The notes under the pieces were generated by a model. It was not told the DNA's origin, ran no database searches, and saw nothing but the letters and a program-made list of their open reading frames with translations. Made by a program: the position numbers and the translations under genes. From NCBI GenBank assembly GCA_946699065.1, contig CAMPDV010000078.1, forward strand, positions 186,001-250,000: 64,000 nucleotides of DNA. The letters are read 5' to 3'. The stretch is from Loxodes magnus. Its lineage: Eukaryota; Ciliophora; Karyorelictea; Loxodida; Loxodidae. This document shows positions 8,350-49,810 of this stretch, one piece after another; positions within the stretch are counted from its first letter, which is position 1, and every line of letters starts with the position of its first letter.

Positions 8350-9340
8350 TATTTATTTATTATCCTTTTTCACACTGTATGTTATAACTTTATAAGTTAA
8401 AACATGCACAAATAATTTACCAGGCACTTTTACAAAAGAATATGCTTTCTCTTAGGCTTTGTTAGTCAGAGAATTGTACTTTTATTAGATTATCTATATT
8501 TTCTATAATTAATGATTGATTATGTTCATATGTTTAGCTTTATTTAATAAATTATAAGCTTCTTAATTCACTTTATATTGTAAAGTCTATTCTATAAGAT
8601 TTAGAAAATAAAAAATGTTTTTAATTTAAACATAAAATTAATATAAGCAAATTTTATTTATTAATTCTATCATTTTAACATATTTTGTCTCTATGGAATA
8701 AATTATTAATATCAACTCATTGCTTTAAGTTATATTCCTATTGAGAACTATATTAAAGATAAATTTTAGTAAAATTCTATTAAGAAACTACTTTAAATTT
8801 TAGAGTCATGCAGACTATATGGATAATCCAAAAAAAAATAGAAGAATTTAGAAGTTTCCTTAAATTAACTATAACAAATCAATAAGTAATATAGTAAGAA
8901 ATAATCTCATCTTAAGTTGCGAACTGATTCATCCAGTTTTAAATATGAATTGCATTTGCTTTATTATCCTGTGAAAAGTTATTTCTATATGAGTGAAAGT
9001 AAAACATGCTTATATATATCTTCAAATGTTTCTACTATTAAATTTTATTTTGACATCTTTCTAAAATTTCCAGGTAAAAATTTGTAAAGAAAATAACATA
9101 AATCAAATTTACTTAAACTTATATTTTATTTTTTATAAAAATTAGAAATAGATCTTCAAATTAAAATTTTTCATAAGAATTTACTGAAAAATAAATTAAA
9201 TATTTGGAAGAATTATATCAAATTAAATAGAAACGAAGGTAGAATAAAAAAAGAGAGATAATGAAAGCAAGAAACGTAAAATGCCAAATGAGAAAAAGAA
9301 ATTTACATTAATAAACTTAAATTTATATAAATTGCAGTAT
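8350..9340 (+). CDS. conserved protein region, left copy (unrecognised)
   Basis: Near 8,423 the frame reads GTFTKEYAFSQALLVRE; the right arm gives GTLIKEYALSKNLLVRE. The two stay alignable for about 70 codons with mostly conservative changes, so this is real coding sequence. From an ATG at 8,808 another frame begins MQTIWIIQKKIEEF and is likewise matched in the right arm (MQTTQIIQEKLKEAQ). The frames differ, so an intron or frameshift separates the blocks and exact ends are not fixed. No known domain is recognised; hydrophobic and Lys-rich segments alternate. The next gene starts at 9,693. Confidence 0.5.
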
Positions 9341-9692
9341 CTGAATTTAATCGGAAATTTCATACAATATAAATGTTATTAAAGTGAACTAATTTATAAG
9401 TTTTATACTTTTAGGTTTATTTAATTATTATTAAAGATTTTCCTTTAAAAATTTCTTTTATGAATTTAGTAAGAAATTTACTAATATAAACTTTTTTATT
9501 ACTTCTTATGATTCATTATTATCTAGCATTTACATAAAATAAATATAATATATTTATTCTTCTTTATATAAAACAATTTTCTATGATTTTTTAGTTTATA
9601 TTTAGAGAAGAATTATAACTAATCTTTTTAATAAATTTTTGAGTTAAAGAAACTATTTCGTATTTTATTAATTATTAAAATAAATAGATAAA

Positions 9693-10160
9693 ATGCAAAA
9701 TTTCTTGCAAAAAGTCTCTTCTAAAGAGAATCCATCCCAATCAAATTACGATAAGCAAAACATACTCTAAGAACTCAAAGCTATGCTATAGGAGAATTTT
9801 AAATTTTTAAGAAACGTATAAGAGCTTGAAGAAAAATCGCATACCTAATGTCTAACACATAAATATAAAAAAATATAAATTTCCAACCATTCAATTTGAG
9901 AATTGAACAAATAAAATCCAAATTTAATAAATTAGCGGCAATGACTGTTAGCTTATTTCTAAAAATATATATTCTAAGAAGAAGACTCAGGAAGATTAGA
10001 AATGGAATAACACTAAAGACAATTTTAAACTTTAAAATTTTTGATTAATGGCAAACTAAATAAAGGTGGCACCACGTTAATAAATTATGTTATATTATAG
10101 TTTCTTAAATTTTCTAATAATTATCTTTCAAATATCGAAGAAATCTGTTCTTTTGTTTTT
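9693..10160 (+). CDS. coiled-coil conserved protein, left copy
   Basis: The start MQNFLQKVSSKENPSQSNYD is followed by a heptad-like segment ILQELKAMLQENFKFLRNV and by ELEEKSHTQ. The right arm reads almost the same protein, so the frame is secure for about 70 codons. Further on, a block KGGTTLINYVILQFLKFSNN and NIEEICSFVFYFAKKF can be read. The 3' end is not clear because TAA/TAG are sense. I do not recognise a family. This copy keeps its ATG; the right-arm copy does not. Confidence 0.6.
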
Positions 10161-10579
10161 TATTTTGCAAAAAAATTCAAATAGTTAAAAAAATAAAATT
10201 TTTTCATAAGATGTTAGATTGCAATTTTTTATTTCATTTTTTATAATTTAAGCTATTATAATAAAAAATCATTACTTTGTATGCAACTTTTATTTATTTA
10301 TTTATTTGTTTATTTATTTATTAAAAATAGCTATTTTATTAATTATTAATCTTTTAACTACATTTATCTGTATTCTTAATCTTTAAAAATATTTTTTTAT
10401 AATTAAATTATTTTTATTTATCTTTTTTAATTATTTTATATTTTTTGTAAAAATGTTTTGATTTACAATTTATTTATTTTAAAATTACTGTTGATGGAGG
10501 ATTTAATTTTTTTAATTTAATATGAAAAAAATTAAAATAGCTTAGTTATTTATAATTTATAATTTATTTTTCTTTTTTA

Positions 10580-10632
10580 TTATAAAGAGCTGCACACCAA
10601 TGAGGTTCTACGCGCTCTATAATCAAATTTAT
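10580..10632 (+). repeat. dispersed GC-rich hairpin repeat, copy 1
   Basis: AAGAGCTGCACACC...GGTTCTACGCGCTCT followed by ATAATCAAATTTATTTA. The GC-rich core folds as an imperfect hairpin (AGAGC pairing with GCTCT, CACC with GGTT/GGTG). The same about 50-bp unit, with the same AT-rich right flank, occurs at 35,077, 52,332 and 52,640. Its role is unknown; it may be a miniature mobile element or a small structured RNA. The surrounding 10.2-11.9 kb is otherwise AT-rich without a recognised gene. Confidence 0.7.
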
Positions 10633-11927
10633 TTATTATTTATTTATGTTCTTTTATTTTAATGTTTAGCTTAATTTAAAATATTTTAAAAGACAAAAAT
10701 TTAGTAATTAAGCCTTCAAATAGTATTTAATATGTATCTTCATCAGTTTTTGCAATGTAATTCTATCTTTTTATTTTTCTTTTATAATAATTAAATTAAA
10801 ATGCAGAGCAGTTAGATTATTCTATAGTTTTAGCCTCATATGCTTTTGTCGTTCTTAATTTGTATATTTATTTTATAAAATGATTTATTCTGATGCTAAA
10901 TTAACATATTCTATTGTGTTCTTAAAATTTGTATCATAATTATATAAATTTATTTTATTTAATAAAAATATTTACTTTTATTTAAAATTATTAGTATCTT
11001 TTATTATGTTATCAGATTAAATTTCTGCAATATTTTATACATGTTTAAAAGATTAACAATATTAAAAAATTTAAGTTTTATAGATTTCAAAGTAATTTTT
11101 TATAGTAATATTAGTTAATATTTAATTATTTAGAATTAACTTATAAAATTGTTTGGTTTGAGAATAAAAATATTTCAATTAACTATAATTTAATTTTAAA
11201 TATTACAGTTAATATTATTAAACACTAAACTTAGATTTAAAAATAATTGTTGTGAAAGCAATGCATTACTAATAATAAATTTTAGCTTAATATATTTAGT
11301 TTTTTTCTAGAATTAACAAATATATTTATTAAAATTTTTCATATCTTCTGCTAAAAAAACGTTTTCTTTCATTATAAAAAACTTAAAATTTTTAAGTTTT
11401 TATTGGTGTATGAATAAAGATTCATATGATATAGTCTAAAAAATTTTAATTTTTTTTGCTATTAAATTTTTTTCTCATTTTATAATTTAATATTTGCAAT
11501 TAAATTATTTTTAGAAGAAAATATATTTTCTGATTTTTAATTTACTTTTTTTAGCAATTTTTAATTCTTAAATGAACATTAAAATATTTATTAATGAGAT
11601 ATTTATCATCCTTATCACTATTAAATATAAAAAACTAAATTAATGAATTATTATTAAAAAATATTTATATAGCATCAGTCTAATAAACAAATATTTTTAT
11701 TAAAAACTTAGAGTAAAAAAATAAAATAAATAATATTTTTTTTAATTATTAAAATATTAGTCTATCTTTAAAAGTTCCTGTAGTAAATCTACAATAAAAA
11801 ATAAAAATTTAATTATTAAAATATTTTTTATATTCCTAATCTCTATATTATGCATTATCTAAAAAATTCTAAATGGTTTACTTTAATAAGAATAACTTTA
11901 GACTTAAAAACTTGATTCAAAATTTCT

Positions 11928-12362
11928 AAAATTTTTGTTCCGTCCGAAAAATCTTCTATAGTAAAAATTCAGAGCGAAAAACAAAAATTCAAATTTTTAC
12001 ATCTTAAATCGATTTTATCAGTTAATCAAAAATTAACTGATATAGATTAGAACTTTCTTAGTCTCACCTCCACTAAATTTATAAAAATTTATTTTATTTA
12101 AATTAGATAAAAAAGAAATTTAATTAATAATTAATTATCTTTACTTTTTGAATTTTTCCAATTCATAGTTAAAAAAAAATCTAAAAATCTAAAAATCTAA
12201 AAATCTAAAAATCTAAAAATCTAAAAATCTAAAAATCTAAAAATCTAAAAATCTAAAAATCTAAAAATCTAAAAATCTAAAAATCTTTTCCTTCTTTTAA
12301 AATTCCAAAAAAAATTTTTGTTCCGTCCGAAAATTTTCCTGTAGCCGATCGAAAAACAAAAT
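11928..12362 (-). repeat. two TTCGGAC-type dispersed repeats
   Basis: Two copies in the same orientation at about 11,930-11,990 and 12,308-12,362. On the minus strand each reads GTTTTTCG..., a TATAG-like block, then TTTTCGGACGGAACAAAAAT. The core TTCGGACGGAAC is the best conserved part. Confidence 0.65.
12178..12287 (+). repeat. 8-bp tandem repeat (CTAAAAAT)n
   Basis: About thirteen perfect copies of CTAAAAAT. The right arm has the same array (as ATTTTTAG) with only about six copies at 50,713-50,763, so copy number changed after the arms duplicated. 12.36-13.2 kb next to it is AT-rich without a recognised gene. Confidence 0.9.
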
Positions 12363-13111
12363 TAAAATTTTCACAAATTTTAAACAAAAAAAAATTTAAA
12401 TATTAAACATTTTTACATAATTTTAAGCAAAAAGATATTTTAATGATAAAAAATTAATTATTTAAATAATTTTAACCACTTTTAAATAATTTAGAAATTA
12501 TCTAATACATATTAAAAAAAATATTTTTATATTATATAATCTTTAAAAATCAAAAATATCTTTCTCTTTTCTTTGCATCTACAATCTTTTTGTCCTTTAT
12601 TTTAAAAAATTATCTTCAGTCTTAATTTACAAAATTCTTATCCTTTAACTTTCCCTTTTTACACTTTTATAACTTTTATATCTTTTTACACTTTAGAAAG
12701 TAAAAAAGAGTTATATACCCTTCCTCTAATTACTCTTTAAAAAAATACTTTTACCCTTAAAAAAAATTAAATCCTTAGAAACTAATTATATAATTATTAA
12801 ACTACAATACTAAATATTCTAACTCCAATACTTAAAATACATTATTAAATAAATTTTAAACCTTTAATACTCATTCTCCACACTCATAGAACCTTATACA
12901 AAATCAAAAAACAAATAACAAAATATTTTAAACATAAATTTAAAAAATATCAATTATAATATAACTTCATAATAACAAACACAATAATATATATTCAAAA
13001 TGATAAATTAAGATATATTTAAATATATTTAGATATACTAAAATATACTATTGTTAATCATTAATTACTTTAATACCCCTTATATACATACTTAATTAAT
13101 AAACATATATT

Positions 13112-13185
13112 TAGTAGAGTTCAAATTAAGTAGAGTTAAATTAAGTAGAGTTTATATTAAGTAGAGTTCAAATTAAGTATTTAAA
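13112..13185 (+). repeat. short tandem repeat AATTAAGTAGAGTT
   Basis: About four imperfect copies of a 16-17 bp unit (AGAGTTCAAATTAAGT) downstream of the left micro-exon chain. A decayed version with fewer copies is at 49,830-49,885. No function is apparent. Confidence 0.7.
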
Positions 13186-13211
13186 GTCATTCACTCACTC
13201 TCACCAATTGA

Positions 13212-13871
13212 TCACTATGTAATATTGATACTCACGTCCTATTTTAAACTCATAAAACACAAACTCACCCCCTTAATAATAACCTTAAACTAACATACAT
13301 TCTATATAAAATAATTAATAACTCACCTCCTAAATAAATTATTTTTTAACCTACGATCTAAAAAACAGAAAAAAAAACTATAAATACACCTTACATACTA
13401 TCAATATTAATAAATACGCTCTAAATTGGAAACTTAAAATACTTACTTGCTATATGTCAAGAATATTAAAATACTTACTCCCTATATGTTTAAGAATATT
13501 AAAATACTTACAGTCTATATGTTTAAAAGCATATTAAAATACTTACCTTCTATATGTCAAGAATATTAAAATACTTACCTTCTATATGTCAAGAATATTA
13601 AAATACTTACCCCCTATATGTTTAAAAGAATATTAAAATACTTACAGACTATATGTTTAAAGAATATTAAAATACTTACTAGCTATATGTTTAAAGAATA
13701 TTAAAATACTTACTTGCTATATGTTTAAAGAATATTAAAATACTTACTCGCTATATGTTTAAAGAATATTAAAATACTTACTCGCTATATGTTTAAGAAT
13801 GTGAAGTACCTCCTAAAATTATTTATATAGTAAACTTACTATCTAATAATACATTTAACTTTTAAACTTAC
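13212..13871 (-). other. chain of mini-intron-like units with 3-nt slots, left arm
   Basis: Reading the minus strand from 13,871, intron-like units start with GTAAGT, GTACTT, GTATTT, GTAGGT, GTGAGT or GTATGT and end in TAG/AAG. Each is separated from the next by exactly three bases. The first units are 29 and about 27 nt. Then come about eleven related units near 31 nt (13,800-13,440), then unrelated units of about 20-37 nt down to 13,212. The slots begin ATA, GAG, CGA, CGA, CAA and end TAT, ATC, GAG, AAT, GGG, GAC, and a final TGA. The spacing is identical across units unrelated in sequence. Read phase 0, the tail is ...SGKKTGQSYIENGD-stop. Read in the phase left by exon 2 (phase 1) it is WNRATTTIWEEDWT.... 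I cannot decide between them. Confidence 0.8.
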
Positions 13872-14887
13872 TTCACTTCATTTTAAGCTATTCCCCATCG
13901 ACAATTTATAAACTCGATACTGATTAACCGTCCTTCAGTTTAGTATTGTTTTTTAAGATGTTGAGAGACCATGCGTATAACTTAGTTTATTGTGCGATTT
14001 ATTCTTTTATCTACTTTATTGTAGTTTCTTATTTGACCTTGAGCTTTAGTTTCTTCTTGTTCGGCGATACAATGGTTATACTGATATCCTATATCTTTTT
14101 CTACTGAGGAATATTCTAAAGGGGAGAAATTGGCTAATTAGGCTACACTACTGGCGTAACTTATTAGAACTAGATTTACTAACCTTATAACTAAGATAAC
14201 TATTTTTGATTCTAGACTTAATCATTCAATTTCTATATCTCACTCCTCAAATAATCATTTTCCTTAACCATTTACTCTTTAATCAACTTATAATTGTCCA
14301 ACTCCTCAAAAATATTAACCGATACCCTCACATCGATGATCCTTTAAACCTCATCTAACAATCTCAACACCTTAGACTCATACCTAGAAATATCCTAACC
14401 TTAGAAACCCTAATTGTTATTACTAATAGTTATTACTAATAGATATTACTTACCTCTAGATTTTTAAGAACCTTAACTACTCCTATATTTATCTATCCTA
14501 GTCAAACAACTACCTTTGTAAGACAATATTGTCCTTAAAAACGTAACTACTCACATGCTTAATCAACTACTAGATGAAAGTATATTAGACCTTAGACAAT
14601 TAAGTCTAAGCTTAACGCAATCTCAGTGATTGATTCTCCAACAATGATATACTCTCCATTACACTCTTTTACTCAAGATAATTAAGTAACTAACTGTCTT
14701 TTACCAAATTTTAAGGATGGATCTTATGAACTTGCTGACAATTTGGACATTTGATATTTTTTGTTTTTAGATAATGATCATAAGAACAGATTGCACATAT
14801 GTTGTGCTTACATGGCAACAACATGGGAAGCTTTTCCTATCCGTCGAAATCTCCTTTACAAGATTGACATTAAGCAACCTAGGACAT
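13212..14887 (-). CDS. RING finger / coiled-coil / ubiquitin-like protein, left copy
   Basis: Probably an E3 ubiquitin ligase-like protein. The start ATG at 14,887 gives MSQVAQCQSC. The RING is near residues 7-53: CQSC, then PCKHNICAIC, then CPNC (C3HC4 spacing). A long Gln-rich coiled coil follows. Exon 1 (14,887-14,454, 434 nt) ends in phase 2, and a 31-nt GTAAGT...TAG intron (14,453-14,423) restores the coiled-coil frame (SLLENQSLRLRQAQ before it, ESKVLRLLDEV after it). Exon 2 ends in a UBL domain: ITIVSPNKKKLKLKV, TTIEQIKEQIAQQTKL, LKDGQSVSSLQIVDGEQL, aligning with ubiquitin. Exon 2 stops at 13,872, where the micro-exon chain begins. A TGA directly after the UBL (MK-TGA) could be the stop. 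If instead read through, the chain extends the protein to a TGA slot at 13,214-13,212. Confidence 0.8.
14423..14453 (-). other. 31-nt intron in the RING-UBL gene, left copy
   Basis: GTAAGTAATATCTATTAG... ending ...ACTATTAG, exactly 31 nt. Removing it joins the RING/coiled-coil frame to the coiled-coil/UBL frame. The next ATTAG downstream would give 44 nt and the wrong frame. It has the same length as the tandem units at the gene's 3' end. Confidence 0.75.
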
Positions 14888-16172
14888 TTCTTATTATTAT
14901 TTTTTAGAAAAAAACAGTTCCTTTTATACAAAAACAACGTAAATATACGCTATACAATATTATGAAATTAAAAAAGCACGTAGCTAAAAATAATAATAAT
15001 AATTTTATGAAACTTTAGTATTATTAATATAAGAACTACATATCTTGAATTCCTATTATATCTTCTTGGATTCATCTTCTTCTACAAAGAAAATTAATAA
15101 AAAAACTAATATTCAATCTTTTTGTTAAATTGTGCTAATTCATAATTATCAGTCTTTTCTTACCCTTTTTCTCAGATTAAACTTTCTAACTTATCATTGA
15201 GATACTTTAAAATAGTAAATCATAATTAACTTAGATGAAAACTACTTAAGATTATTTTTTTTAATAATTATATAAATAAATTGAAGAAACTCTTCTTTAG
15301 ATTCTCCTTCAAATACATTTTGTATTCAGCTTTACTTCAACACAAAATTTATTATCTCCTTCTATAAATTAAAAAATTTATAACAAACTTTAAAGTAAAT
15401 CACTTAATCTTGATACATTTACTTGATACTTAACTACAGTAAATCATTTAAGTAGTTAATTTCTTAAATAACCATTCAGTCCTAATATTGAAACACTATT
15501 GCAATAAATAATAATAATTCCATCTTATAATGCGTACTAAACTTATATATATGAGAATCAGAATGTATATATACTACTTATTGCAGAAATCATTCCATTA
15601 ACTCTTAAAAGATCTTACCAATAAAACTCTTTTCATCTTAATTTTTCATAAAATAACTTTCAGTTTAACTCTATACTAAAACTATTTGTTACAATATAAA
15701 ATTTTTATAGACTTAACAATATAATTTTAATGCCTAGGGAATTAAAGTATTTCAATTCTTAAAAAAGTATAGAGAAGTTTAAGATACTTACATAATTTAT
15801 CAACTAGAAATAAGCAAAAGAAAATCCTGAAATGACCAAAGATATTAAGACTGGGAACTAGGATAAAAGAACATAAAATAGATTTAGTTAGCTGCATATA
15901 AATAGTAAAATGTATATGATAATAAGAATATTTAGTTAGTCAAATTTAAAATAGAAATTTATAGTATTAGTTATTAGAGTACTTACAGTAATATCTATGA
16001 ATTACTCTATATTCTCAGTTATAGAACTCATTTTCCTGCTTGTATTTTTGGAGAGATAGACTCTTTATAGTAATTTTCAATTATTACTTTATTAATGAAA
16101 TATTTATTTCGTCATCCTATCCTTGTATTAACTAAATTTTCTTAATTAAATAATTAAGCAACATAAAATAAA

Positions 16173-17312
16173 ATAGATTTGCAAGTAGAAATTCTAGAAA
16201 ATAGCTAACTTAAAGCAAATGCTTGAAAGATCATATTCAATAGGATAAAGGTAGAGAATAGTACTATATAACTTAACTATATTATGATACTCTAAAAAAC
16301 TATTAACAGTTTAAAAGAACTAAGCTAAATATAAAATTTATTAGAAGGCTAATTAACTATCCAACCAGAAAAAGAATTAAAAGCTGTGTAATTTAAGTGA
16401 AGTTCCAGTTAAAAACTTAATTTATCAAACCTAGAAATATAATTACAAAATTCGAAATTGACTAAGATGTAAAACAATAGCGTAAGGATTCAATTAAAAA
16501 TATGAAATGATAAAGATTGCAAAACAAATTATAGCTCATCGATAAATAAAATTATTTAAATTAACACTATCAGGCACTTTTACTCTAAGTTATATACAAC
16601 ATAACTATGATATAAAAAATTTTGAAATAACAAAAACTTTAGCTATATCTAAACATATGAGAAATAATTTAAAATATAGTCTGAATAAACCGCTTTTATA
16701 AGAAAATTAAATTAGAAATTCATAATAAAAACTTAAAGAAGTGCTTAAAATAATCTAACTCATGCCATTATTCAATTAAGAAAATATCTAATAATATGAA
16801 AGAAATTAAAATTTTCTACAGATAAGATTTAATACCATCAAAAATAAATTAATTATAAAGTATATCAAAATATTCATAGACCGTTTTAAAAGATTCATCT
16901 TTCTCATAAAAAGATAAAATAAAAAAGTATTTAAAAGGATTAATCTACTTTACTATCTTAAATGAAAAACTAACAACAAAGTCTCTATGCTAAAAAAGTA
17001 GAGATAATTTCATAAAAATATTTAAAGATAGTATATTTATATATGACTATTAAAATAAAAATAACTATTTACCTTTATCTACACATGATAATTATTTATA
17101 ATTTAAATATCTTAAAGATTTTAGATCTTGTAATATTTCAGTTTTACAAAAAATTATTTAGCATATTTATTGCTTTATTAGTCCAAGTTATTACTCTATC
17201 TTATTTAATATTATATTTTGAGTTAATAATTATAAGATTTTTCACTCAAAGCAGCTATTTTATTCACATATTATTTTATAATTTAACTGAATCCAATGCT
17301 AAGATTAATTAA
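16173..17312 (+). pseudogene. coiled-coil/membrane protein, left copy with lost start
   Basis: The right arm starts this protein with ATG (MDSQVEILENSQLKANAWKI). Here the same place reads ATA GAT TTG, so the start is gone, although the frame stays open for 380 codons. The reading is Gln/Lys/Ser-rich, then strongly hydrophobic at the C-terminus (about residues 290-360, for example FSIFIALLVQVITLSYLILY), suggesting membrane segments. No known family. An ATG at 17,043 in the same frame could start only the membrane part. 15.0-16.1 kb upstream is AT-rich and unrecognised. Confidence 0.45.
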
Positions 17313-17659
17313 ATCTCTCTATTAATTTTTTTTTGTGCCTCCTAATAAGTCTCACTTTAAATTTTAGTGAGATAAAGGTAATGCTTAAATCTAACTTTAT
17401 AATAAAACTTAGTTTGTAAATAATCTCCAACATAAGCCACATTTTATTTCTAGATTTAATGAAACTAAAAAGAAGTGATTATAGTAACTATAAAGACTCT
17501 AATTAATTCATATAGAAAAGAGAAAAATATTAAGATAGACAATAAGAAATAAAACTATAAATATAGAACTTTATAAGTAACTGTTTTAATAATTAAACTG
17601 CATTAGTATTTATTTATAAAGGACTAAATAAAATTAATTTAAGTGCCTAGTGAACAGAA

Positions 17660-18350
17660 ATGCAATTAAAATCTTTTTCTTAGCAAACTGCTAAGAAAAG
17701 TTTATAATACTAGTCAACTATTTTAAAAATTTGGGATAGGTGTAATTAAATATGAAATATACTCCAATATTAAAACACTTGCATATTTCCAATATCTATA
17801 CTATCAAATCAGACACAAATATCAAGAAGGCTATAACATTAAAAATAATAAATTTGAAGAGCAGCAAATAGATATAAAAAAACTGAATAAACTACTATTT
17901 TTATAGAATAAATTAACTAAAACACATTTGCATTATTAGGATCTGCTGGTGAGGAATATAAATATTTATAATTATAATATGAATAGAACTGAATATTATG
18001 AAATATATTCTATAGATATTTTCATAAAACCAAATAAAATCAAAAGAAAGAGATTTATATTATATCGGGATAAAAATGTGTATAATGTAATCATAAAGAT
18101 GTAAAGAATGCGAAGTCTATGATATTAAAACGAAGACATTCAGAAGTATCAGTTGAATTAATCTACCAATAAATCATTTTCGATGAGATATATGTGAGGA
18201 AAAGATATTTGTGTTTGGAGAATGAATAAACAAAAAAGGAGGATGAAAAATATAATTATATGCTTAATTGATTTTAGTTGTAAGATATATTTATATCTTT
18301 AGATTAAAACAACAAGTAAAATTCTTATTATATATATTTGATATAAAAAA
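17660..18350 (+). CDS. small conserved protein region, left copy
   Basis: An ATG conserved in both arms starts MQLKSFSQQTAKK here (MQLNSLSQEIAKK in the right arm). Further on, ALLGSAGEEYKY is shared, and the downstream KRKRFILYRDKNVYNVIIKM is nearly identical between arms. The blocks lie in different frames, so short introns or frameshifts are present. The Lys/Tyr/Ile-rich sequence matches no family I know. Confidence 0.45.
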
Positions 18351-18419
18351 GAATCTTAAAGTTAGATATTCTATTGAATTAAATTTTAATTTTAGTTAAT
18401 TTTTTCACTTTCAAAAATA

Positions 18420-18836
18420 TCAGTCCTAAGAGTAATTGTCCTATGAATAAAGCTTATTCACTTGAACTTCATATTTAGATACACATTCTTATGTAGCTCT
18501 TTACATATCTGTCATTGAAATAGATATATAAGGACAAAATTATGACAAACACCAACAAGTCACATTTGCAATTAAGATCCTATAAAAAACAGCTCTTTGG
18601 CTTTTTCCACATTTTTTGCTCCAAACTTTCCAGTCTAAATTCATAACAATAGAAAAAACTAGAATGGATAGACTTCATTATATATACCTAATTTTTTTAT
18701 ATTCCTTAATAAACTTCTAGTCTATTGGAGGAGTAGCGTCAAGCTCTAATTTTTTATTTTCATAATCGTTAAAGAATCTTTCATATAATTTCTTATTATG
18801 CGGCCTTCTTTCTATTTTATTATAAATAAAGTAATC
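18420..18836 (-). CDS. conserved 138-codon reading ending in TGA, left copy
   Basis: 139 codons including a terminal TGA, the same length as in the right arm. It begins DYFIYNKIERRPHNKKLYER and includes SKKCGKSQRAVFYRILIA. A hydrophobic segment lies near residues 54-66, followed by several Cys. Upstream a short GT...TTTTAG suggests that the real first exon lies before this block. No family is recognised. The convergent neighbour is the 17.66 kb gene. Confidence 0.6.
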
Positions 18837-19028
18837 CTAAAATATAAGAACCTAGAATAAACATTAATTTTAAGTATTAAATTATTTTTGCAAATACTAA
18901 AAGAGGAAAGTTTTATTTAAGAAATTTGGATGAAATAGTAATAAGAAATAGTTTATTAATTAAAATATATTTCTTACTTATATTTACTCTTTGTAATTTT
19001 AAAATAAATTATTTTAAAATTTAAGATT

Positions 19029-19646
19029 ATGGAAACACTTCTTAATGCATATAAAGTAGATGAGTTGAAATATCAAGAATAATCTTAAAAGTTTCTATTC
19101 TTTTCTATCTTAATAATTTTGGTAACTACGATGTTTAGAATATTTTGTTTAGTAATTATTTTATATTATTTATAGTGCTAAATGTGATTTTGTTATTAGA
19201 CATAGCGAAAACATGATTCTGGGGAATTTAAGACTAAAGTAAAAGTAACTAATGTAGTATAGATTCCAATCAAGTACTAACTCCAACTCTAAAGAGTATT
19301 TCATAATACTGCTATAAAATCAATACTCTTCAGTGCTTTTATTATTTTCAGCTTTAGCTATTTCCTAGTTAATTCATTTTAGGATTATAGTAGTCCATTC
19401 AGAAAAGATACTCTAGAAGATCTTAAAAATGTGATAAGCAAAAGAGATGAATTTTTTTTTATAAGACAACAATTTTGGAAGGAAGTAAGAGTTAATTTTA
19501 TGATTTAAAGCTTAATAGAAAAATATTACTTTAAAAATGAAGGATTAGCTATATAGTTAGACCATTTTCAAATTAGCTTAAAAGCTATTTTCATTTTATA
19601 AGCTAGAAGATAACTTAAAGAATTCGATAATTATACTGAAAAATGA
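19029..19646 (+). CDS. two-membrane-segment protein, left copy (intact)
   Basis: ATG at 19,029 (METLLNAYKVDELKYQ), 205 codons, then TGA at 19,644. A first hydrophobic segment lies at about residues 22-48 (KFLFFSILIILVTTMFRIF) and a second near 98-115 (SILFSAFIIFSFSYFLVNSF). A charged helical tail follows (DTLEDLKNVISKRDEF, IRQQFWKEVRVNFM, RRQLKEFDNYTEK). It is probably a small membrane protein with a cytosolic C-terminus. I do not recognise the family. Confidence 0.6.
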
Positions 19647-19949
19647 TAACTCTGAAAAGGAACAATTAAAAAAAATTTTTGAATTTCTAAAACAAAAGAT
19701 CTAAATTGTAGAATATCTTGCTATCTGAATGTGATTACAAAAATAATGAATCAAATTTTCAAAAGAATATAGAAAACCTAGTTAGTTAAATTTAAGAAAT
19801 GTACTCGCTTTCTAACTATTAATAAATGAATTTATTTAAGAAAATCTATGTTTATTTGAGTTTTTTAGATTATACTAAGAAATTTTTTGCAGAACTGAGC
19901 AAATATAATTGGAAATTAATTTTGGTGATAAGAATAAAAAAATGGTTGA

Positions 19950-20800
19950 AGGTTTCAAGTTAGGCTTCTATACCACTTCTTCCTAAGCCAAAAAGGAAGG
20001 GAGGAAGCAAGAAACCAAGTCTTAATAATCTTAACAATCTTCTCTATCACAACCTTAACCAACACTGAACTAACAACTTGGAATCTAACAAAACGAACGA
20101 AAGCCAACCTTGAAGAATATACACACGGAAACTCCAACCTCAAGCGAGAAACCGAGGAAACAGATGAAGTCTGTTCTCCACCAGGAGGTATCAGAGTTCA
20201 ACTCTTCTAGCCAGATGAGCATGGAGTAGCTCATCAAAGTGGTACTGAACCTCCAGGAAGAGGTCAAGAGATTGAAGAAGGACAATGATATGCTGATGAC
20301 AAAGCTAGACCTAGCAGAAGGAATTGAGTCAAGACTTATGTCCTAGGAAAGAGATCTTAACGCCTTTTGGAATATCTCACAAAGTCAGACTAACGAATCC
20401 TAAAATTAGCTTTAGAAACAGACTGAATTGGATAACAGACTCCGAAAAGTAGAAGAGAAATGTAAATTTTTAATAAAGAGTAAAGCGAAACTGGAGCTAT
20501 ACAAATGGAAATCGAAGCCTAGAAAGAGCAAACAAATCAAGGAAAATAATTCAAAATAAAAAAGAAATGTTTCTGTTGTTGAAGTGTATGACATTTTTAT
20601 CGGAAGTGTTAGAAATTCTAATAGAAATAAAGAAATTATTGGATAAAAGAACAAAAAAAGAAGAAAAAAGAAGAAGCAAGAATGAAAAGAATGTATTGCA
20701 ACCCGGATGGTTCAATATACAAGATTAAGATGGAACCAAGGCAAGTTAAAGGAGGGAAAACCTTGAAAAATCCGAGTTCCCAATCTCACTAAAATTGGGC
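19950..20800 (+). pseudogene. coiled-coil / zinc-knuckle protein E1, left copy (frameshifted)
   Basis: Gag-like layout. There is a basic N-terminal block (PLPKPKRKGGSKK near 19,978) and a strong coiled coil at about 20,160-20,450 (LQEEVKRLKKDNDML, LRKVEE). A CX2CX4HX4C knuckle at about 20,566-20,612 reads CFCCWSVWHFYRKC, with TGA as Trp twice. The motif MYCNPDGSIYKIK lies near 20,697. Compared with the right copy one T is missing near 20,461, so coil and knuckle are in different frames. After it, 20,760-20,900 has an imperfect palindrome (CAGCAGGGAGCATGAACTGC). Confidence 0.7.
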
Positions 20801-21264
20801 GCCCCGAATTTTTATATTTAACAGCAGGGAGCATGAACTGCTGTATTCCTGACGGGGTTGGAAATCCCTAAAACGGAAAACTTAAAATTAATATTATTAT
20901 TATTTTGGTGATAAGATTAGTCAAACAAATAGTTTTCCTACTCAAGGATTACAATTTCTCATTTCTTATTTAGTATAATCTCAAACCGGTATAAAATTAT
21001 TAAGATTTTTATTGAAAGACAAACTAAAAAAACTATGGCTTACTAAAGAATCATTTTTTTTAAAATAACTTAAACAACAATAAAAAGAAAAAAATAGGAA
21101 TTATAAATAATAAAAATATAAATAAATTTCTACTTAAAAAAAAATTTTAATTTCATCCAAAAAATCGCAATTTTGATATATTTTATCATTTACTTATTTA
21201 TGTAATTTAAAGTGAAACTATCAATAATTGATTTTAAAAATAGATGATTTTGCTAAAAAATAAA

Positions 21265-21617
21265 CATCTTTTAAGTAAATTCTTATAACATTAAAAATTT
21301 TTAAAGCGAATTTTTCATTTACTCGAAAAGAATTTCAAAATTAAAAAATGTTCTTTCTTCAAAACATAAAAAATAATTTTTTTATAATTTCAAAAATAAT
21401 TTACATTATCAAAAATATATTTATAAATCAAAAACAAAAAAATTTTGTCAAACATTTTTTTTTATTTTTACAAAAATACCATTTCAACAAAAAGATTTCA
21501 AAATTCTATTTTAATGTAAATTGCTTTTTAATTCCTATTTTTTTTTTCAAAAATCTTTTATATTTAGAATTTTTTCTTGAAATTTTATTCCTATTTAGAA
21601 TTTTTAATGCCGAAATA
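21265..21617. other. left-arm-specific AT-rich segment
   Basis: The arms stop matching here: this roughly 350-bp stretch replaces about 2.4 kb of the right arm (34,830-37,225). It is A/T low-complexity. A 102-codon ORF on the plus strand is Phe/Asn/Lys/Ile-rich and not conserved, so I do not call it a gene. Confidence 0.5.
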
Positions 21618-21690
21618 AAAAAATTTATTCCGTGGCGAAAATCTTTGGTAGTGTAAAACGCTGAGCGAAAAACAAATTTTTCATTTTCAA
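21618..21690 (-). repeat. TTCGGAC-type dispersed repeat, diverged
   Basis: Minus strand: TTTTTCGCTCAGCGTTTTAC, ACTACCAAAGATTTTCG, then CCACGGAATAAATTT. It lies at the junction where the arms differ (left 21,265-21,650 against right 34,830-37,225), so it may mark an insertion or deletion edge. Confidence 0.55.
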
Positions 21691-21784
21691 GAAATTTAAG
21701 CTCTAAACCTGAAAGATAAATAAAACTTATTATCAGAAAAATTAATTTTCCAATCGAAACAATAAATGTTAAACATAAAATTTG

Positions 21785-21872
21785 AAATTTTATAATAATA
21801 ATAAATAATAATTAATAATAATAATTAATAATAATTAATAATAATTAATAATAATTAATAATAATTAATATT
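21785..21872 (+). repeat. AT tandem repeat, left arm
   Basis: Copies of TAATAATAAT/TTAATAATAA. The right arm holds a longer 10-bp array (TTATTATTTA) at 34,493-34,660. Confidence 0.85.
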
Positions 21873-22380
21873 AAATATCAATCATAAAAAATAAAGAATA
21901 AAAAAATAAATTTAGTTTAAAATAAAATAAATAAAATACTTAATTGCATTTTTTAAATTATAATCAATGTTATAAACTAACTTTGCCCTTATAAATAATA
22001 TTCTAACTAATTCACAAAAAAAATGAAAATTTATACTTAACTTGAAATTTTTATAAAATCTAAAAATAAATCTATAAAAAATTTATAGAATAAAATTAAA
22101 CTTAAACTTATTTTACGTCTTCATTTAACAAAATTATATTTTTAATATTTTAAACATTACCACTTTAAATCACATACCTCACTAATTTCAATAACCTATA
22201 TTATCTACTCAACTTTTATTTTAAACCAAGAATATTTAACAATATACAATCTTTTAATAAATAAAAAGCAAGCATTTCATAAAGCTAAAAACATAATTAA
22301 CATTAAACATTCATTTAAATGCATAACCAATATCTTATATCTTTAATCTTAAAATTTAATTAAGTCAAATCATAAGTTAC

Positions 22381-23200
<820 letters not shown>

Positions 23201-23466
23201 TTTAATTTTTATAACTTACTTCTATAAATATTTAATTAAAATAACTAAATAAATTTTACAACTCAATTTCAATATAATTAAACTATTAAATTATTTATTA
23301 AGCATATTTATTAATATCTTCTAAAACATTGATTTTTCTATTTTTGTCTTAAAAAAAGACGAGATATTAAACTAATAGTGTACAAGCTTTTACAATTTTA
23401 ATTATTTTATTTCTGTTTACTTTTAAATAAAAGGATAAATTATTATTTCAAAAGTTTTATAACGAA

Positions 23467-23481
23467 GAATTATATCCTTAT
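23467..23481 (+). repeat. target-site duplication of E2, 3' side
   Basis: GAATTATATCCTTAT, identical to 24,314-24,328 and to the single empty site in the right arm. Confidence 0.85.
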
Positions 23482-24313
23482 AATAATAATAATATACTTA
23501 AAGTTAGTAGAGTTTTGCATTCTCTGGAATTGCAACCAGTTCCTGCGGACAGTTTTTTTAACGTGGGTGTGATCCACGACCTTTTTATTAAGTGGAAGGT
23601 TACCACTGTAACCGTTCAAGTGGTCTTGCAAAAAGCTTTTATTTGTAGATCCCTGTTGGAGTTATTCATAGTTTATTGAGTTGTCTCCATGTTCTTTTCT
23701 GCTCTTATTCGTTTATTTTCTTTCATTATCAACAGTTTTTTAAAATATGTTGATTTGATTTGCAACATCAACAAATTTTGTATTATTGTCTTTATTTCGT
23801 TCTTTTTTATGATAATTTATTTTCTATATTTTCTAATCTTTTAATGAAACTTGTAGCAATCATTTCTTTTTCTGGATTCAATTCTGTTTTTAATTCTATT
23901 AGTATTTTTTCTATTTCCATTTTCGTGTCATATTTAAAGTTTTATTGTGACTAAGTTCAGAGTTGTTCTTCCATTATCAAATTGCTTTGAATGAGCTGTC
24001 TTCTGAGTATTAATAATTCGTTATTTTAATCCTCTATGCTATTCATTAATTCCCTTATTTTTTCTCCTTAGTTATAAGCTATTTCTTCATACTTTGAAAT
24101 TAATTTTTACATTTGATCTAGTTAAATTTAAAGTTTTTGATCAGATTCGTTCTTAGGTTATCTTATCTCTATAGATCCTACCATCACTTTACCTTCTGAT
24201 GACGAACTTGACTCCTCTCGTTGCTATTGTTTTTTCTAAATTTCTTTTGCCGCTTTTCTCTTTAGGTTTTTAAGTTAATTCTTTGAGAGTCGAAGAGATT
24301 AATCCATTTTTTT
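23482..24313 (-). mobile_element. 0.83-kb coiled-coil/zinc-knuckle element E2 with target-site duplication
   Basis: Present only in the left arm. It is flanked by direct repeats GAATTATATCCTTAT (15 bp) at 23,467-23,481 and 24,314-24,328; the right arm has the single empty site near 32,620-32,650. The element's 3' end (left side) is an (ATT)n tail, as in target-primed retrotransposition. Its 5' end is only seven bases from the ATG. No polymerase is encoded, so it must move in trans. This is the clearest insertion in the window. Confidence 0.85.
23510..24307 (-). CDS. E2 protein: coiled coil, CCHC knuckle, LW.T.GIY motif
   Basis: ATG at 24,307. The basic, Ser-rich N-terminus reads MDQSLRLSKNQLKNLKRKAA, REESSSSSEG. 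A long coiled coil follows (LDQMQKLISKYEEIAYNQG, KIRELMNSIEDQNNELLILR). The knuckle is CWCCKSNQHILKNC (CX2CX4HX4C). Twenty residues later LWITPTGIYKQK replaces the LYCN..G.IY motif of the relatives. The frame is open throughout with TAA/TAG=Gln and TGA=Trp. The stop is uncertain because no TGA follows before the element's end; TAA close to the 3' tail may be used. Confidence 0.75.
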
Positions 24314-24328
24314 GAATTATATCCTTAT
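24314..24328 (+). repeat. target-site duplication of E2, 5' side
   Basis: Second copy of GAATTATATCCTTAT. Beyond it, 24.33-25.42 kb is AT-rich arm sequence without a recognised gene. Confidence 0.85.
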
Positions 24329-44507: not shown

Positions 44508-47500
44508 ATGTCCTAGGTTGCTTCATGTCAATCTTGTAAAGGAGATTTCGACGGTTAGGAAAAGCTTCCCATGTTATTGCCATGTAAACACAACATATGT
44601 GCAATCTGTTCTTATAATCAATTTATAAGCACCAAAAGTATCAAATGTGCAAATTGTCAGCAAGTTTATAAGATCCATCCTTCAAAGTTGTAAGAAGACA
44701 GTTAGTTAATTAAGTATCTTGAGTAAAAGAGTATCATGAAAAGTATATCATTGTTGGAGAATCAATCACTGAGATTGCGTTAAGCTTAGAGTTAATTGTA
44801 TAAGGTTTAATTTACTTTCATCTAGTAGTTGATTTAGCACGTGAGTAGTTACGTTTTAAAGGACAATATTATCTTATAAAGGTAGTTGTTTGACTAGGAT
44901 CGATAAATATAGGAGTAGTTAAGGTTCTTAAAAATCTAGAGGTAAGTAATAACTATTTGTAATAACTATTAGTAATAACCATTAGGGCTACTAAGACTAG
45001 GATATTTCTTAGTATGAGTCTAAGGTGTTGAGATTGTTAGATGAGGTTTAGAGGATTAGTTATTAGAAGGTATCGGTTAATGTTTATGAGGAGTTGGACA
45101 ATTATAAGTTGAGTCAAGAGTAAATGGTTAAGGAAAATGATTATTTGAGGAGTGAGATATAGAAGTTGAATGATTAAGTTTAGAATCAGTAATAATAGTT
45201 ATCTTCTCTATAAGGTTAGTTGATCTAGTTCTAATAAGTAACGCAAGTAGAGTAGCCTAATTAGCCAATTTCTCAACCTTATAAGAAGCTTCAATAGACG
45301 AAGATATAGGATATCAGTATAACCATCGTATCGCCGAACAAGAAGAAACTAAAGCTCAAGGTCAAATAAGAAACTACAATAGAGTAGATAAAAGAATAAA
45401 TCGCACAATAAACTAAGTTATGAGTATGGTCTCTCGACATCTTAAAGAACAATACTAAAATGAAGGACGGTTAATCAGTATCGAGTTTATAAATTGTCGA
45501 TGGGGAATAGCTTCAAATGAACTGAAGTAAGTTTAAAAGTTAAATGTATTATTAGACGGTAAGTTTATTATATAAATAATTTTAGGAAGTACGTCGTATT
45601 TTTAAAACATATAGTTAGTAAGTATTTTAATATTCTTTTAAACATATAGCTGGTAAGTATTTTAATATCCTTTAAACATATAGCAAGTAAGTATTTTAAT
45701 ATTCTTTAAACATATAGAATGTAAGTATTTTAATATTCTTTAAACATATAGAATGTAAGTATTTTAATATTCTTTAAACATATAGAATGTAAGTATTTTA
45801 ATATTCTTTAAACATATAGAATGTAAGTATTTTAATATTCTTTAAACATATAGAATGTAAGTATTTTAATATTCTTTAAACATATAGAATGTAAGTATTT
45901 TAATATTCTTTAAACATATAGAATGTAAGTATTTTAATATTCTTTAAACATATAGAATGTAAGTATTTTAATATTCTTTAAACATATAGAATGTAAGTAT
46001 TTTAATATTCTTTAAACATATAGAATGTAAGTATTTTAATATTCTTTAAACATATAGAATGTAAGTATTTTAATATTCTTTAAACATATAGAATGTAAGT
46101 ATTTTAATATTCTTTAAACATATAGAATGTAAGTATTTTAATATTCTTTAAACATATAGTCTGTAAGTATTTTAATATTCTTTAAACATATAGAATGTAA
46201 GTATTTTAATATTCTTTAAACATATAGAATGTAAGTATTTTAATATTCTTTAAACATATAGAATGTAAGTATTTTAATATTCTTTAAACATATAGAATGT
46301 AAGTATTTTAATATTCTTTAAACATATAGAATGTAAGTATTTTAATATTCTTTAAACATATAGAATGTAAGTATTTTAATATTCTTTAAACATATAGTCT
46401 GTAAGTATTTTAATATTCTTTAAACATATAGAATGTAAGTATTTTAATATTCTTTAAACATATAGTCTGTAAGTATTTTAATATTCTTTAAACATATAGA
46501 ATGTAAGTATTTTAATATTCTTTAAACATATAGAATGTAAGTATTTTAATATTCTTTAAACATATAGTCTGTAAGTATTTTAATATTCTTTAAACATATA
46601 GAATGTAAGTATTTTAATATTCTTTAAACATATAGAATGTAAGTATTTTAATATTCTTTAAACATATAGAATGTAAGTATTTTAATATTCTTTAAACATA
46701 TAGAATGTAAGTATTTTAATATTCTTTAAACATATAGAATGTAAGTATTTTAATATTCTTTAAACATATAGTCTGTAAGTATTTTAATATTCTTTAAACA
46801 TATAGCAAGTAAGTATTTTAATATTCTTTTAAACATATAGCTGGTAAGTATTTTAATATTCTTTAAACATATAGAATGTAAGTATTTTAATATTCTTTAA
46901 ACATATAGAATGTAAGTATTTTAATATTCTTTAAACATATAGAATGTAAGTATTTTAATATTCTTTAAACATATAGAATGTAAGTATTTTAATATTCTTT
47001 AAACATATAGAATGTAAGTATTTTAATATTCTTTAAACATATAGAATGTAAGTATTTTAATATTCTTTAAACATATAGAATGTAAGTATTTTAATATTCT
47101 TTAAACATATAGAATGTAAGTATTTTAATATTCTTTAAACATATAGAATGTAAGTATTTTAATATTCTTTAAACATATAGTCTGTAAGTATTTTAATATT
47201 CTTTAAACATATAGAATGTAAGTATTTTAATATTCTTTAAACATATAGAATGTAAGTATTTTAATATTCTTTAAACATATAGAATGTAAGTATTTTAATA
47301 TTCTTTAAACATATAGAATGTAAGTATTTTAATATTCTTTAAACATATAGAATGTAAGTATTTTAATATTCTTTAAACATATAGAATGTAAGTATTTTAA
47401 TATTCTTTAAACATATAGAATGTAAGTATTTTAATATTCTTTAAACATATAGAATGTAAGTATTTTAATATTCTTTAAACATATAGAATGTAAGTATTTT

Positions 47501-49810
47501 AATATTCTTTAAACATATAGAATGTAAGTATTTTAATATTCTTTAAACATATAGAATGTAAGTATTTTAATATTCTTTAAACATATAGTCTGTAAGTATT
47601 TTAATATTCTTTAAACATATAGCAAGTAAGTATTTTAATATTCTTTTAAACATATAGCTGGTAAGTATTTTAATATTCTTTAAACATATAGAATGTAAGT
47701 ATTTTAATATTCTTTAAACATATAGAATGTAAGTATTTTAATATTCTTTAAACATATAGAATGTAAGTATTTTAATATTCTTTAAACATATAGAATGTAA
47801 GTATTTTAATATTCTTTAAACATATAGAATGTAAGTATTTTAATATTCTTTAAACATATAGAATGTAAGTATTTTAATATTCTTTAAACATATAGAATGT
47901 AAGTATTTTAATATTCTTTAAACATATAGAATGTAAGTATTTTAATATTCTTTAAACATATAGAATGTAAGTATTTTAATATTCTTTAAACATATAGAAT
48001 GTAAGTATTTTAATATTCTTTAAACATATAGTCTGTAAGTATTTTAATATTCTTTAAACATATAGAATGTAAGTATTTTAATATTCTTTAAACATATAGA
48101 ATGTAAGTATTTTAATATTCTTTAAACATATAGAATGTAAGTATTTTAATATTCTTTAAACATATAGAATGTAAGTATTTTAATATTCTTTAAACATATA
48201 GAATGTAAGTATTTTAATATTCTTTAAACATATAGAATGTAAGTATTTTAATATTCTTTAAACATATAGAATGTAAGTATTTTAATATTCTTTAAACATA
48301 TAGAATGTAAGTATTTTAATATTCTTTAAACATATAGAATGTAAGTATTTTAATATTCTTTAAACATATAGTCTGTAAGTATTTTAATATTCTTTAAACA
48401 TATAGAATGTAAGTATTTTAATATTCTTTAAACATATAGTCTGTAAGTATTTTAATATTCTTTAAACATATAGAATGTAAGTATTTTAATATTCTTTAAA
48501 CATATAGAATGTAAGTATTTTAATATTCTTTAAACATATAGAATGTAAGTATTTTAATATTCTTTAAACATATAGAATGTAAGTATTTTAATATTCTTTA
48601 AACATATAGAATGTAAGTATTTTAATATTCTTTAAACATATAGAATGTAAGTATTTTAATATTCTTTAAACATATAGAATGTAAGTATTTTAATATTCTT
48701 TAAACATATAGTCTGTAAGTATTTTAATATTCTTTAAACATATAGAATGTAAGTATTTTAATATTCTTTAAACATATAGAATGTAAGTATTTTAATATTC
48801 TTTAAACATATAGAATGTAAGTATTTTAATATTCTTTAAACATATAGAATGTAAGTATTTTAATATTCTTTAAACATATAGAATGTAAGTATTTTAATAT
48901 TCTTTAAACATATAGAATGTAAGTATTTTAATATTCTTTAAACATATAGAATGTAAGTATTTTAATATTCTTTAAACATATAGAATGTAAGTATTTTAAT
49001 ATTCTTTAAACATATAGTCTGTAAGTATTTTAATATTCTTTAAACATATAGCAAGTAAGTATTTTAATATTCTTTTAAACATATAGCTGGTAGCAAGTAA
49101 GTATTTTATATTCTTTTATTCTGGTTATTTTAATATTCATATAGAATGTAAGTATTTTAATATTCTTTAAACATATAGAATGTAAGTATTTTAATATTCT
49201 TTAAACATATAGTCTGTAAGTATTTTAATATTCTTTAAACATATAGCAAGTAAGTATTTTAATATTCTTTTAAACATATAGCTGGTAAGTATTTTAATAT
49301 TCTTTAAACATATAGAATGTAAGTATTTTAATATTCTTTAAACATATAGAATGTAAGTATTTTAATATTCTTTAAACATATAGTCTGTAAGTATTTTAAT
49401 ATTCTTTAAACGTATAGAGAGTAAGTATTTTAATATTCTTTAAACATATAGTGAGTAAGTATTTCAACATCCTTTTAAACTTATAGTTGGTAAGTATTTT
49501 AATATTCTTTTAAACTTATAGTTGGTAAGTATTTTAATATTCTTTTAAACATATAGTTGGTAAGTATTTTAATATTCTTAAACAAATAGAGCGTATTTAT
49601 TAATATTGATAGTATGTAAGGTGTATTTATAGTTTTTTCTATTTACTAGATCGTAGGTTTAGAATAATATTTATAGGAGGTGAGTTATTAATTATTTTAT
49701 ATAGAATGTATGTTAGTTTAAGGTTATTATAAAGGGGGTGAGTTTGTTTTTTAATGAGTTTAAAATAGGACTCGTTGAAAAATCGAGTGGTTGTGAAATA
49801 TTCTGAGTGA
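44508..49810 (+). CDS. RING finger / coiled-coil / ubiquitin-like protein, right copy
   Basis: Same protein as the left copy. ATG at 44,508 gives MSQVASCQSCKGDFDGQEK. RING: CQSC, PCKHNICAIC, CANC. Exon 1 is 44,508-44,941 (434 nt, as in the left arm), the intron 44,942-44,972 (31 nt) and exon 2 44,973-45,526, ending after the UBL (ITIVSPNKKKLKLKV ... KMKDGQSVSSLQIVDGEQL). A TGA at 45,523 may end the protein. Otherwise the coding sequence continues through the micro-exon array to a last exon (49,769-49,810) that in phase 0 reads DSLKNRVVVKYSE then TGA. With the preceding slots this gives SYIENGDSLKNRVVVKY, resembling the last strand of a ubiquitin fold. If all slots are exons, the extra residues are mostly Asn (phase 0) or Gln (phase 1). 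Confidence 0.75.
44942..44972 (+). other. 31-nt intron in the RING-UBL gene, right copy
   Basis: GTAAGTAATAACTATTTG... ending ...ACTATTAG, 31 nt. Its position, length and phase match the left copy. Confidence 0.75.
45527..45649 (+). other. entry units of the micro-exon chain (non-repeat introns)
   Basis: Four intron-like units of different sequence and length follow the UBL exon: 45,527-45,555 (29 nt), 45,559-45,585 (27 nt), 45,589-45,614 (26 nt, GTACGT start) and 45,618-45,649 (32 nt). The three-base slots between them are ACG, GAA and TTA. The left arm has matching units at the same places but with slots ATA, GAG and CGA. Confidence 0.8.
45650..49590 (+). repeat. 34-bp tandem array: 31-nt intron-like unit plus 3-nt slot
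   Basis: Roughly 115 head-to-tail copies of a 34-bp unit. The constant part is GTAAGTATTTTAATATTC followed by TTTAAACATATAG (31 nt, intron-like with a consensus 5' splice site and TAG end). The remaining three bases are a slot, mostly AAT, otherwise TCT, CAA or CTG, with TTG, AGA and TGA near the 3' end. The constant part is almost invariant while slots differ at all three bases. The order TCT-CAA-CTG recurs near 46.77, 47.59, 49.02 and 49.21 kb, showing higher-order duplication. One scrambled junction lies at 49,080-49,140. The left arm has only about eleven such units. Confidence 0.95.
49591..49810 (+). other. exit units of the micro-exon chain and terminal exon
   Basis: After the array come unrelated intron-like units starting GTATTT, GTAAGG, GTAGGT, GTGAGT, GTATGT and GTGAGT, each ending in AG and each flanked by three-base slots: AGC, then TAT, ATC, GAG, AAT, GGG. 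The last unit (49,738-49,768, 31 nt) leads to a 42-nt exon ending in TGA at 49,808. Slots and units match the left arm closely until GAC; after that the two arms differ. Confidence 0.75.

Follow-up and report, generated by a model that had tools for sequence, protein, structure and literature searches.

Chains of putative mini-introns spaced three nucleotides apart in a RING-UBL gene family of Loxodes magnus, with a predicted variable protein tail

The closest described systems, as presented in the accessible portions of the papers cited here, combine very short or exactly repeated exons in different ways. LRR genes of Tetrahymena contain head-to-tail arrays of exons of exactly 90 bp with more than 98% phase-2 introns, for which recombination has been proposed (PMC6564038). 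The exons of Schistosoma MEG genes are mostly of 15 bp, with the abstract giving a range of 3-81 bp and the main text 6-81 bp, and lie between introns of 100 to almost 5000 bp (PMC10526429). Isolated exons of 3 nt and 1 nt are known from Drosophila hth (PMC7392893) and Arabidopsis APC11 (PMC4674806). For the ciliate Loxodes magnus, RNA-seq and MIC and MAC assemblies have been reported, the MAC assembly being rich in tandem repeats and 706 Mbp in size; the organism uses translation table 27, in which TGA is the sole stop and may also encode Trp at a good distance from the poly-A tail, and both TGA and UAA are depleted in about the last 20 codons (PMC11441545). According to RNA-seq in the same study, introns have a mean length of 19.3 nt and a mode of 17 nt, and 93% are of 25 nt or less. 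The gene models take their introns from RNA-seq mapping with a limit of 40 bp (PMC11441545); since short reads are also hard to map over consecutive 3-nt exons, genes with chains of the kind described below may be missed in the models. Micro-exon chains are not mentioned in the portion of the L. magnus genome paper accessible here (PMC11441545), and no precedent for a chain of 3-nt exons was found in the accessible open-licence literature on micro-exons, ciliate germline genomes and Loxodes exons.

The RING-UBL gene and its mini-intron chains in the window

The window, which is the whole stretch of 64,000 nucleotides of L. magnus DNA that was analysed and corresponds to C78:186001-250000 of the assembly, contains an inverted duplication (8407-25426 and 31477-55044, centred at about 28-29 kb), both arms of which carry a RING-UBL gene and a WD40 gene; the 25 longest of its 215 inverted pairs show 81-98% identity. 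The WD40 gene (22.0-23.5 kb on the minus strand, 32.7-34.3 kb on the plus strand) has near-repeated blocks of 126 nt, the number of repeats being unequal between the arms. The predicted parts of the RING-UBL gene are as follows.

14454..14887, minus strand: RING exon of arm 1, beginning MSQVAQCQSC..., with a C3HC4 cysteine pattern
14423..14453, minus strand: body intron of arm 1, 31 nt, GT...AG
13872..14422, minus strand: coiled-coil and UBL exon of arm 1, ending ...EQLKMK(TGA=Trp)A in phase 1
13215..13871, minus strand: arm-1 chain, 21 mini-introns of 20-37 nt and 20 micro-exons of exactly 3 nt
13201..13214, minus strand: last exon of arm 1, ending in a TGA taken as the true stop
44508..44941, plus strand: RING exon of arm 2
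44942..44972, plus strand: 31-nt intron of arm 2
44973..45526, plus strand: coiled-coil and UBL exon of arm 2, ending EQLQMN(TGA=Trp)A
45527..49768, plus strand: arm-2 chain, 125 mini-introns and 124 slots of 3 nt
49769..49806, plus strand: last exon of arm 2, GAC TCG TTG ..., frame ...ELYREWGLVEKSSGCEIF* (the end at 49806 was counted from the unit listing and is consistent with 49803 as the end of the open frame)

The 31-nt body intron is the junction, among those tried in arm 1, that unites the frame of the RING exon with that of the UBL exon. The C3HC4 spacing of the RING exon was recognized by eye, its matches to Pfam RING models (E 1e-4) fall under the curated cut-offs, and no relatives of this exon were found among public proteins at E<=1e-3. 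The UBL of arm 1 matches Pfam Rad60-SLD with E 4.5e-6 (26.8 bits against a cut-off of 23.8); a shorter piece was submitted from arm 2, and its Rad60-SLD score is below the cut-off. No Rfam families at the gathering threshold and no tRNAs were found within the window, and the exact repeat pattern of the chain had 0 matches in genome_contigs and viral_contigs.

The first-pass annotation had placed about 20 GT...AG units, each three bases from the next, downstream of the UBL exon, and the parse bears this out with 21 units of 20-37 nt and 20/20 gaps of 3 nt. The arm-1 slots in order are ATA GAG CGA CGA CAA CTA TCT GGG AAG AAG ACT GGA CAA AGC TAT ATC GAG AAT GGG GAC. The corresponding chain that had been expected in the other arm at 45.5-49.8 kb is likewise present, with 125 units on the plus strand (45527-49768) and 124/124 gaps of 3 nt when a damaged stretch at about 49055-49144 is counted as two long units. 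The regular 31-nt scaffold of the array is broken within that stretch. Among the 124 arm-2 slots, 87 are AAT, 14 TCT, 5 CAA and 4 CTG, and splicing of the slots in silico gives a long Gln-rich tail. A single 31-nt sequence recurs, nearly unchanged, in the majority of units. At the ends of the chain, the first two or three units and the seven final ones have, as had been noted before, sequences and lengths unrelated to the array, yet the spacing of 3 nt is maintained there.

Because the parser demands a GT (or GCAAG) start and an AG end, single units have GT...AG ends by construction, and the real test is the occurrence of long chains with one spacing, which are absent from Markov sequence. Outside both chains, the window contains at most two consecutive units at a spacing of 3 and at most four at any spacing of 0-9; when 64-kb sequences were drawn 100 times from an order-2 Markov model of the window, the longest run spaced by 3 nt was of two units (86 times) or three (14 times). 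When spacings of 0-12 were scanned, runs of at least five units were found solely at 3 nt, apart from a 7-nt alias produced by the same arrays. The GT...AG chain at 3-nt spacing is far beyond chance.

Ciliates excise short germline segments, and on this ground it might be supposed that the units are removed from DNA in the manner of IESs and not from RNA. The units are nevertheless still present in the assembly, which agrees with the MAC assembly in size, and their ends are intron-like, being GTAAG...TAG in most units of both arms. Together with the report that L. magnus lacks canonical IESs, in so far as the accessible text of that paper covers them (PMC11441545), these features disfavour the excision at the DNA level that had been proposed for comparison, and we regard it as scarcely credible. 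A germline (MIC) transposon was also considered for the region and set aside, there being no integrase or polymerase among the matches listed (the top 25 of 61 families from 78 ORFs, all WD40-type; 10 further ORFs gave 0).

The chain across the family, the genetic code and the reading frame

A search of the genome (705,730,643 bases in 7843 contigs) with the RING exon gave 150 scored genomic matches from 2468 first-look candidates, and with that number of matches the RING-UBL family is a large one. Sixty copies were examined (30 from the search, 20 divergent and 10 further), two of which are the window's own, and a chain with 3-nt spacing was found in 60/60, in L065 by eye only. This architecture extends to subfamilies at 50-67% identity that have different scaffold introns (28, 29, 30, 31, 34 or 36 nt, depending on the subfamily) separated by a slot that is nearly always a triplet. 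From the UBL exon onward, 58 copies were parsed, yielding 48 distinct slot series once ten copies with a series identical to another had been left out; L063 and L065, both with the chain, were not anchored and stand outside the counts, and L012, being the same locus as arm 2, was replaced by the full arm 2 of the window. With a parser that favours 3-nt gaps, the slots of the 48 series measure 3 nt (1610), 6 nt (19), 0 nt (17), 7 nt (2) and 1 nt (1), so that 1646/1649 keep the frame (0, 3 or 6 nt). Both 7-nt gaps occur in L042, where the following unit starts with TT rather than GT, and each was taken for a 3-nt slot with such a TT unit behind it; the 1-nt slot is a single case in L049. The introns (n=1697) have a median length of 30 nt within a parser range of 17-45, and apart from the two TT units of L042 the only non-GT unit is one GC-AG unit. 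On nearly the same loci, a flat-scoring parser found 1669 gaps of 3 nt, 30 of 0 nt, 40 of 6 nt, 23 of 1 nt and 88 others, of which 75 were of 11-12 nt. Many of the 19 slots of 6 nt are at one conserved position.

In the divergent subfamilies L050-L068, the second slot is a recurrent 6-nt micro-exon (AGAAAG, AGCTTG, AACAAG, GGGAAG and others), and some AG/GT junctions have no slot at all. Nine of the ten contigs numbered first (L069-L074, L076-L078) open with tandem arrays whose units are of about 50-115 bp; by eye, one of these arrays consists of WD40-like coding repeats. In G000, C32, C537, C930 and C2553 have ubiquitin matches every 1055-1066 bases or so, in long arrays.

A TGA directly precedes the chain in both window copies, and reading it as a stop, which the first-pass annotation had allowed for and which code 6 would give, divided the copies into those with open and those with stopped tails. 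That code was dropped on finding TGA at Trp positions. At Trp positions of the window's WD40 gene, TGA in one arm faces TGG in the other; within the UBL exon, TGA replaces the TGG of other copies in two cases, and a TGA of arm 2 faces a Tyr of arm 1 (LwVWSLDIL and LYAWSLNIL). In-frame TGA occurs in many of 150 tubulin matches, tallied regardless of residue position. The RING exon and the ubiquitin matches often contain TAA and TAG, with no TGA among those listed; the arm-1 RING exon has no Trp, and neither does ubiquitin. At the position before the chain, 32/48 distinct series have Phe, Tyr, Arg or Leu and 16 have TGA, for which Trp is thus the natural reading. From these exchanges, the in-frame tubulin TGAs and translation table 27, the TGA just before the chain is very probably Trp and no stop.

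With TGA read as Trp, one base is left over at the end of the UBL exon, so that on a spliced reading under table 27 the chain would be entered in phase 1. In this frame 32/48 series are open to a conserved end of the type (L/I)Y.(E/K)WGL followed by TGA, L042 being counted among them with its two 7-nt gaps taken as 3; of the other 16 series, 12 are truncated by the limits of the fetched sequence, and L049, L051, L053 and L068 have parses that fall short of a recognized end. The predicted arm-1 tail is MKwNRATTTIWEEDWTKLYREWGLINW*, and another example is ...ATTTIWEEDWTKLYREWGL. Where codons of the conserved end differ (20 distinct sequences compared), the change is synonymous in 44% of cases in the UBL frame, in 20% in the frame of the slots and in 6% in the remaining frame. 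When slot letters were scored against the codon usage of the UBL exon, the mean log p was -4.01 in the UBL frame and -4.47 and -4.43 in the other frames, and the UBL frame was the best in 25/40 short arrays scored singly. In the 32 complete copies the tail, from the last Met of the UBL to the stop, is of 21 to 139 codons; outside six long arrays, Gln, Glu, Tyr, Trp, Lys and Leu abound in its variable part, and Pro, Cys and His are almost absent. Two observations spoke against slots read as codons in their own frame and against a second ORF from the frequent first slot ATG, and both readings were rejected: TGA is frequent as a slot (60/1226), and in the slots' frame fewer of the differences at the conserved end are synonymous.

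Entry in phase 1 implies that each 3-nt exon straddles two codons, contributing two nucleotides to one and one to the next. The earlier proposal of single-codon micro-exons is therefore strongly supported across the 60 copies in its prediction of one interruption per codon and has to be amended in its identification of slots with codons. An untranslated minisatellite behind a UBL stop, in which the GT-AG ends and the 3-nt gaps have no coding role, would account for the tandem repetition of the units and, had code 6 applied, for the TGA directly ahead of the chain in the window copies. It fares badly with a TGA that is sense in this genome and with a pre-chain position that is not TGA in two thirds of the series; moreover, the end units are non-repetitive and keep the spacing, nearly all slots preserve the frame, and the end is conserved as amino acids in the UBL frame. 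We consider such a minisatellite very improbable.

The coding TGAs in complete copies lie at least 19 codons ahead of the stop in 16/16 cases, a distance that agrees with the published depletion of TGA near the stop but gives it no significant support, since one TGA was seen in the last 20 codons against 2.85 expected with shuffled slots. TAA is not depleted in the last 20 codons (22 seen, 22.5 expected), unlike UAA in the published analysis. Shuffling the order of slots within arrays barely alters the codon fit (z 2.87 for all arrays and 0.66 without the six long ones); L051 was mis-anchored both in this test and in the residue composition and is correctly placed in the frame counts of the 48 series. 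There is little and no clear selection on slot order in the repetitive middle, and for this reason a real rival is that the micro-exons of the conserved end alone are spliced in, the middle being skipped as one large intron with neutral filler in its slots. Any 5' site joined to any later 3' site would stay in frame, shuffled slot orders fit codon usage almost equally, and TGA near the stop is not significantly avoided, all of which would be expected from such skipping. What it leaves unexplained here is that the slots, with 36-37% GC against 19-22% in the introns, fit codon usage in the UBL frame; we give it a small share of the probability.

Constant introns, variable slots and the turnover of units

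Across the 25 loci of subfamily A, the 31-nt units that start with GTAAGTAT number 402, and 202 of them are distinct. Among the units with this start, entropy is near zero in the introns (maximum 0.54 bits, the first eight positions being fixed by the selection on GTAAGTAT) and 1.87, 1.86 and 1.77 bits at the three slot positions. Without that condition, 225 distinct units of 31 nt, a set that includes some unrelated chain-end units, have a maximum intron entropy of 0.5, slot entropies of 1.89, 1.84 and 1.83 and a mismatch of 2.8%. The slots use 45/64 triplets. Between loci, subfamily-A units differ by 0.8% at any divergence of the gene body, the mean of which is 7.3%, so the array introns look younger than their host genes and the slots look saturated. 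Bases 3-6 of the 5' splice sites of array introns vary no less than the interior (47/168 versus 147/895 locus-sites).

Skipping of the middle would leave unexplained why near-invariant introns alternate there with near-random slots. It is also at odds with the arrays having 28 distinct intron indel variants and slots of 3 nt (1029) or 6 nt (1), with the 7-nt gaps of L042 counted as 3; this last point is a weak one, the probability of no slot indel being estimated at about 0.07 if slots took 9% of indels. The apparent youth of the introns relative to the genes and the apparent age and saturation of the slots would also follow if one family of introns with introner-like mobility had recently invaded an older, formerly uninterrupted exon, with one insertion following each codon, and some copies do have identical slots and differing introns. 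Random insertion, however, predicts many exons of 6, 9 and 12 nt, where 1610/1649 are of 3 nt and 19 of 6 nt, and close copies differ by whole units of intron plus slot; on balance insertion of this kind appears unlikely.

Turnover of units between close copies is directly visible: in 9/9 pairs of distinct subfamily-A series with body differences of 0-7 per 1060 nt, the arrays differ by whole units or slots, the count having been made after removal of copies with identical slot series. L037 and L038 have no differences in the body (0/1060) or in aligned introns (0/643), and one slot is AGA in the first and TTC in the second, a swap for which conversion from the unit next to it may account. A single extra unit separates the arrays of L009 and L010, a block of five units separates those of L017 and L018, and L013, which is cut, has 2/1060 body differences from arm 2 and an array greatly unlike it. 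Identical slot series form four groups (L023, L029, L039 and L043 with their relatives), giving ten comparisons. In five of these, within the L023 and L029 groups, the body is identical over 900 bases and 0 or 2 introns differ; in the other comparisons, L040 with L039 and four relatives of L043, there are 4-11/900 body differences and 1-4 differing introns with all slots the same. Because the L039 and L043 groups keep their slots while body and introns drift, fast change of slots is not universal.

At the four places L023-L026, which lie on four contigs, the slot series, the introns and the compared body are all identical, as in recent copies or a duplicated assembly. L043-L046 and L048 constitute a subfamily with one common slot series, in which the body and some introns drift, unlike in subfamily A.

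Interpretation and comparison with known systems

The reading that we hold with considerable confidence is that the chain forms the 3' portion of the coding sequence in a gene for a RING/coiled-coil/UBL protein, in which phase-1 mini-introns split consecutive codons and the spliced micro-exons would encode a variable tail. Successive codons, from 20 to over 100 of them, would each be split by a spliceosomal intron in phase 1, nearly every exon in this part being of 3 nt, and the joined slots would form a tail with a conserved start on one side and an LYREWGL-type end on the other. We infer that the units are removed as RNA by the spliceosome. Array introns of 28-36 nt exceed the lengths of 93% of L. 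magnus introns (25 nt or less), which places them above the usual range and inside the possible one. Units of intron plus slot would be gained, lost and swapped as cassettes, the presumed motor being recombination within near-identical introns, which could move, duplicate and delete slots with the frame intact; with introns in phase 1, each new neighbour of a slot would create a new codon. Skipping of whole units keeps the frame as well, and isoforms are therefore possible.

A further and decidedly tentative proposal is that these genes diversify codon by codon: constant phase-1 introns would serve as scaffolds for recombination, the slots of active subfamilies would be renewed far faster than neighbouring sites by recombination or a slot-directed process, and in-frame skipping would add to the resulting repertoire of hypervariable tags on proteins like E3 ligases. 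Groups of copies whose slots are identical while their introns drift make it less probable. That the tail is a surface for recognition or identity on a protein like a ubiquitin ligase is a guess.

If spliced as read, more than 100 consecutive exons of 3 nt would be precisely joined in one transcript, which, if true, challenges notions of minimal exon size and of the pairing of splice sites among identical introns in a row. Subfamily A would also invert the usual rule of conserved exons and drifting introns. The size of the family and the published L. magnus data make the origin of single-codon exons and fast protein diversification testable.

As far as the accessible portions of the cited papers describe them, several systems share features with the Loxodes chains. 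Provided that the units are spliced, 1646/1649 slots would belong to runs of consecutive very short frame-keeping exons, the general mark of a micro-exon gene, and as in the MEG genes of Schistosoma these runs are tied to protein variation. The Schistosoma introns span 100 to almost 5000 bp, against a median of 30 nt in the Loxodes chain, and no chain of one-codon exons is described for MEG genes in the accessible text of PMC10526429. Exons of 1-3 nt in Drosophila hth and Arabidopsis APC11 demonstrate that such exons can be spliced, yet they are isolated, whereas in Loxodes they would form chains of 20-124. The LRR arrays of Tetrahymena offer a likeness in being a ciliate gene family with one exact exon length, one dominant intron phase, a variable number of exons and a proposed role of recombination. 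They differ in that their exon is of 90 bp, encodes a protein repeat and is bounded by phase-2 introns, while the Loxodes chain has 3-nt exons and phase-1 introns in a RING-UBL gene; and unlike in those arrays, it is the exon that varies in subfamily A of Loxodes and the array intron that stays constant.
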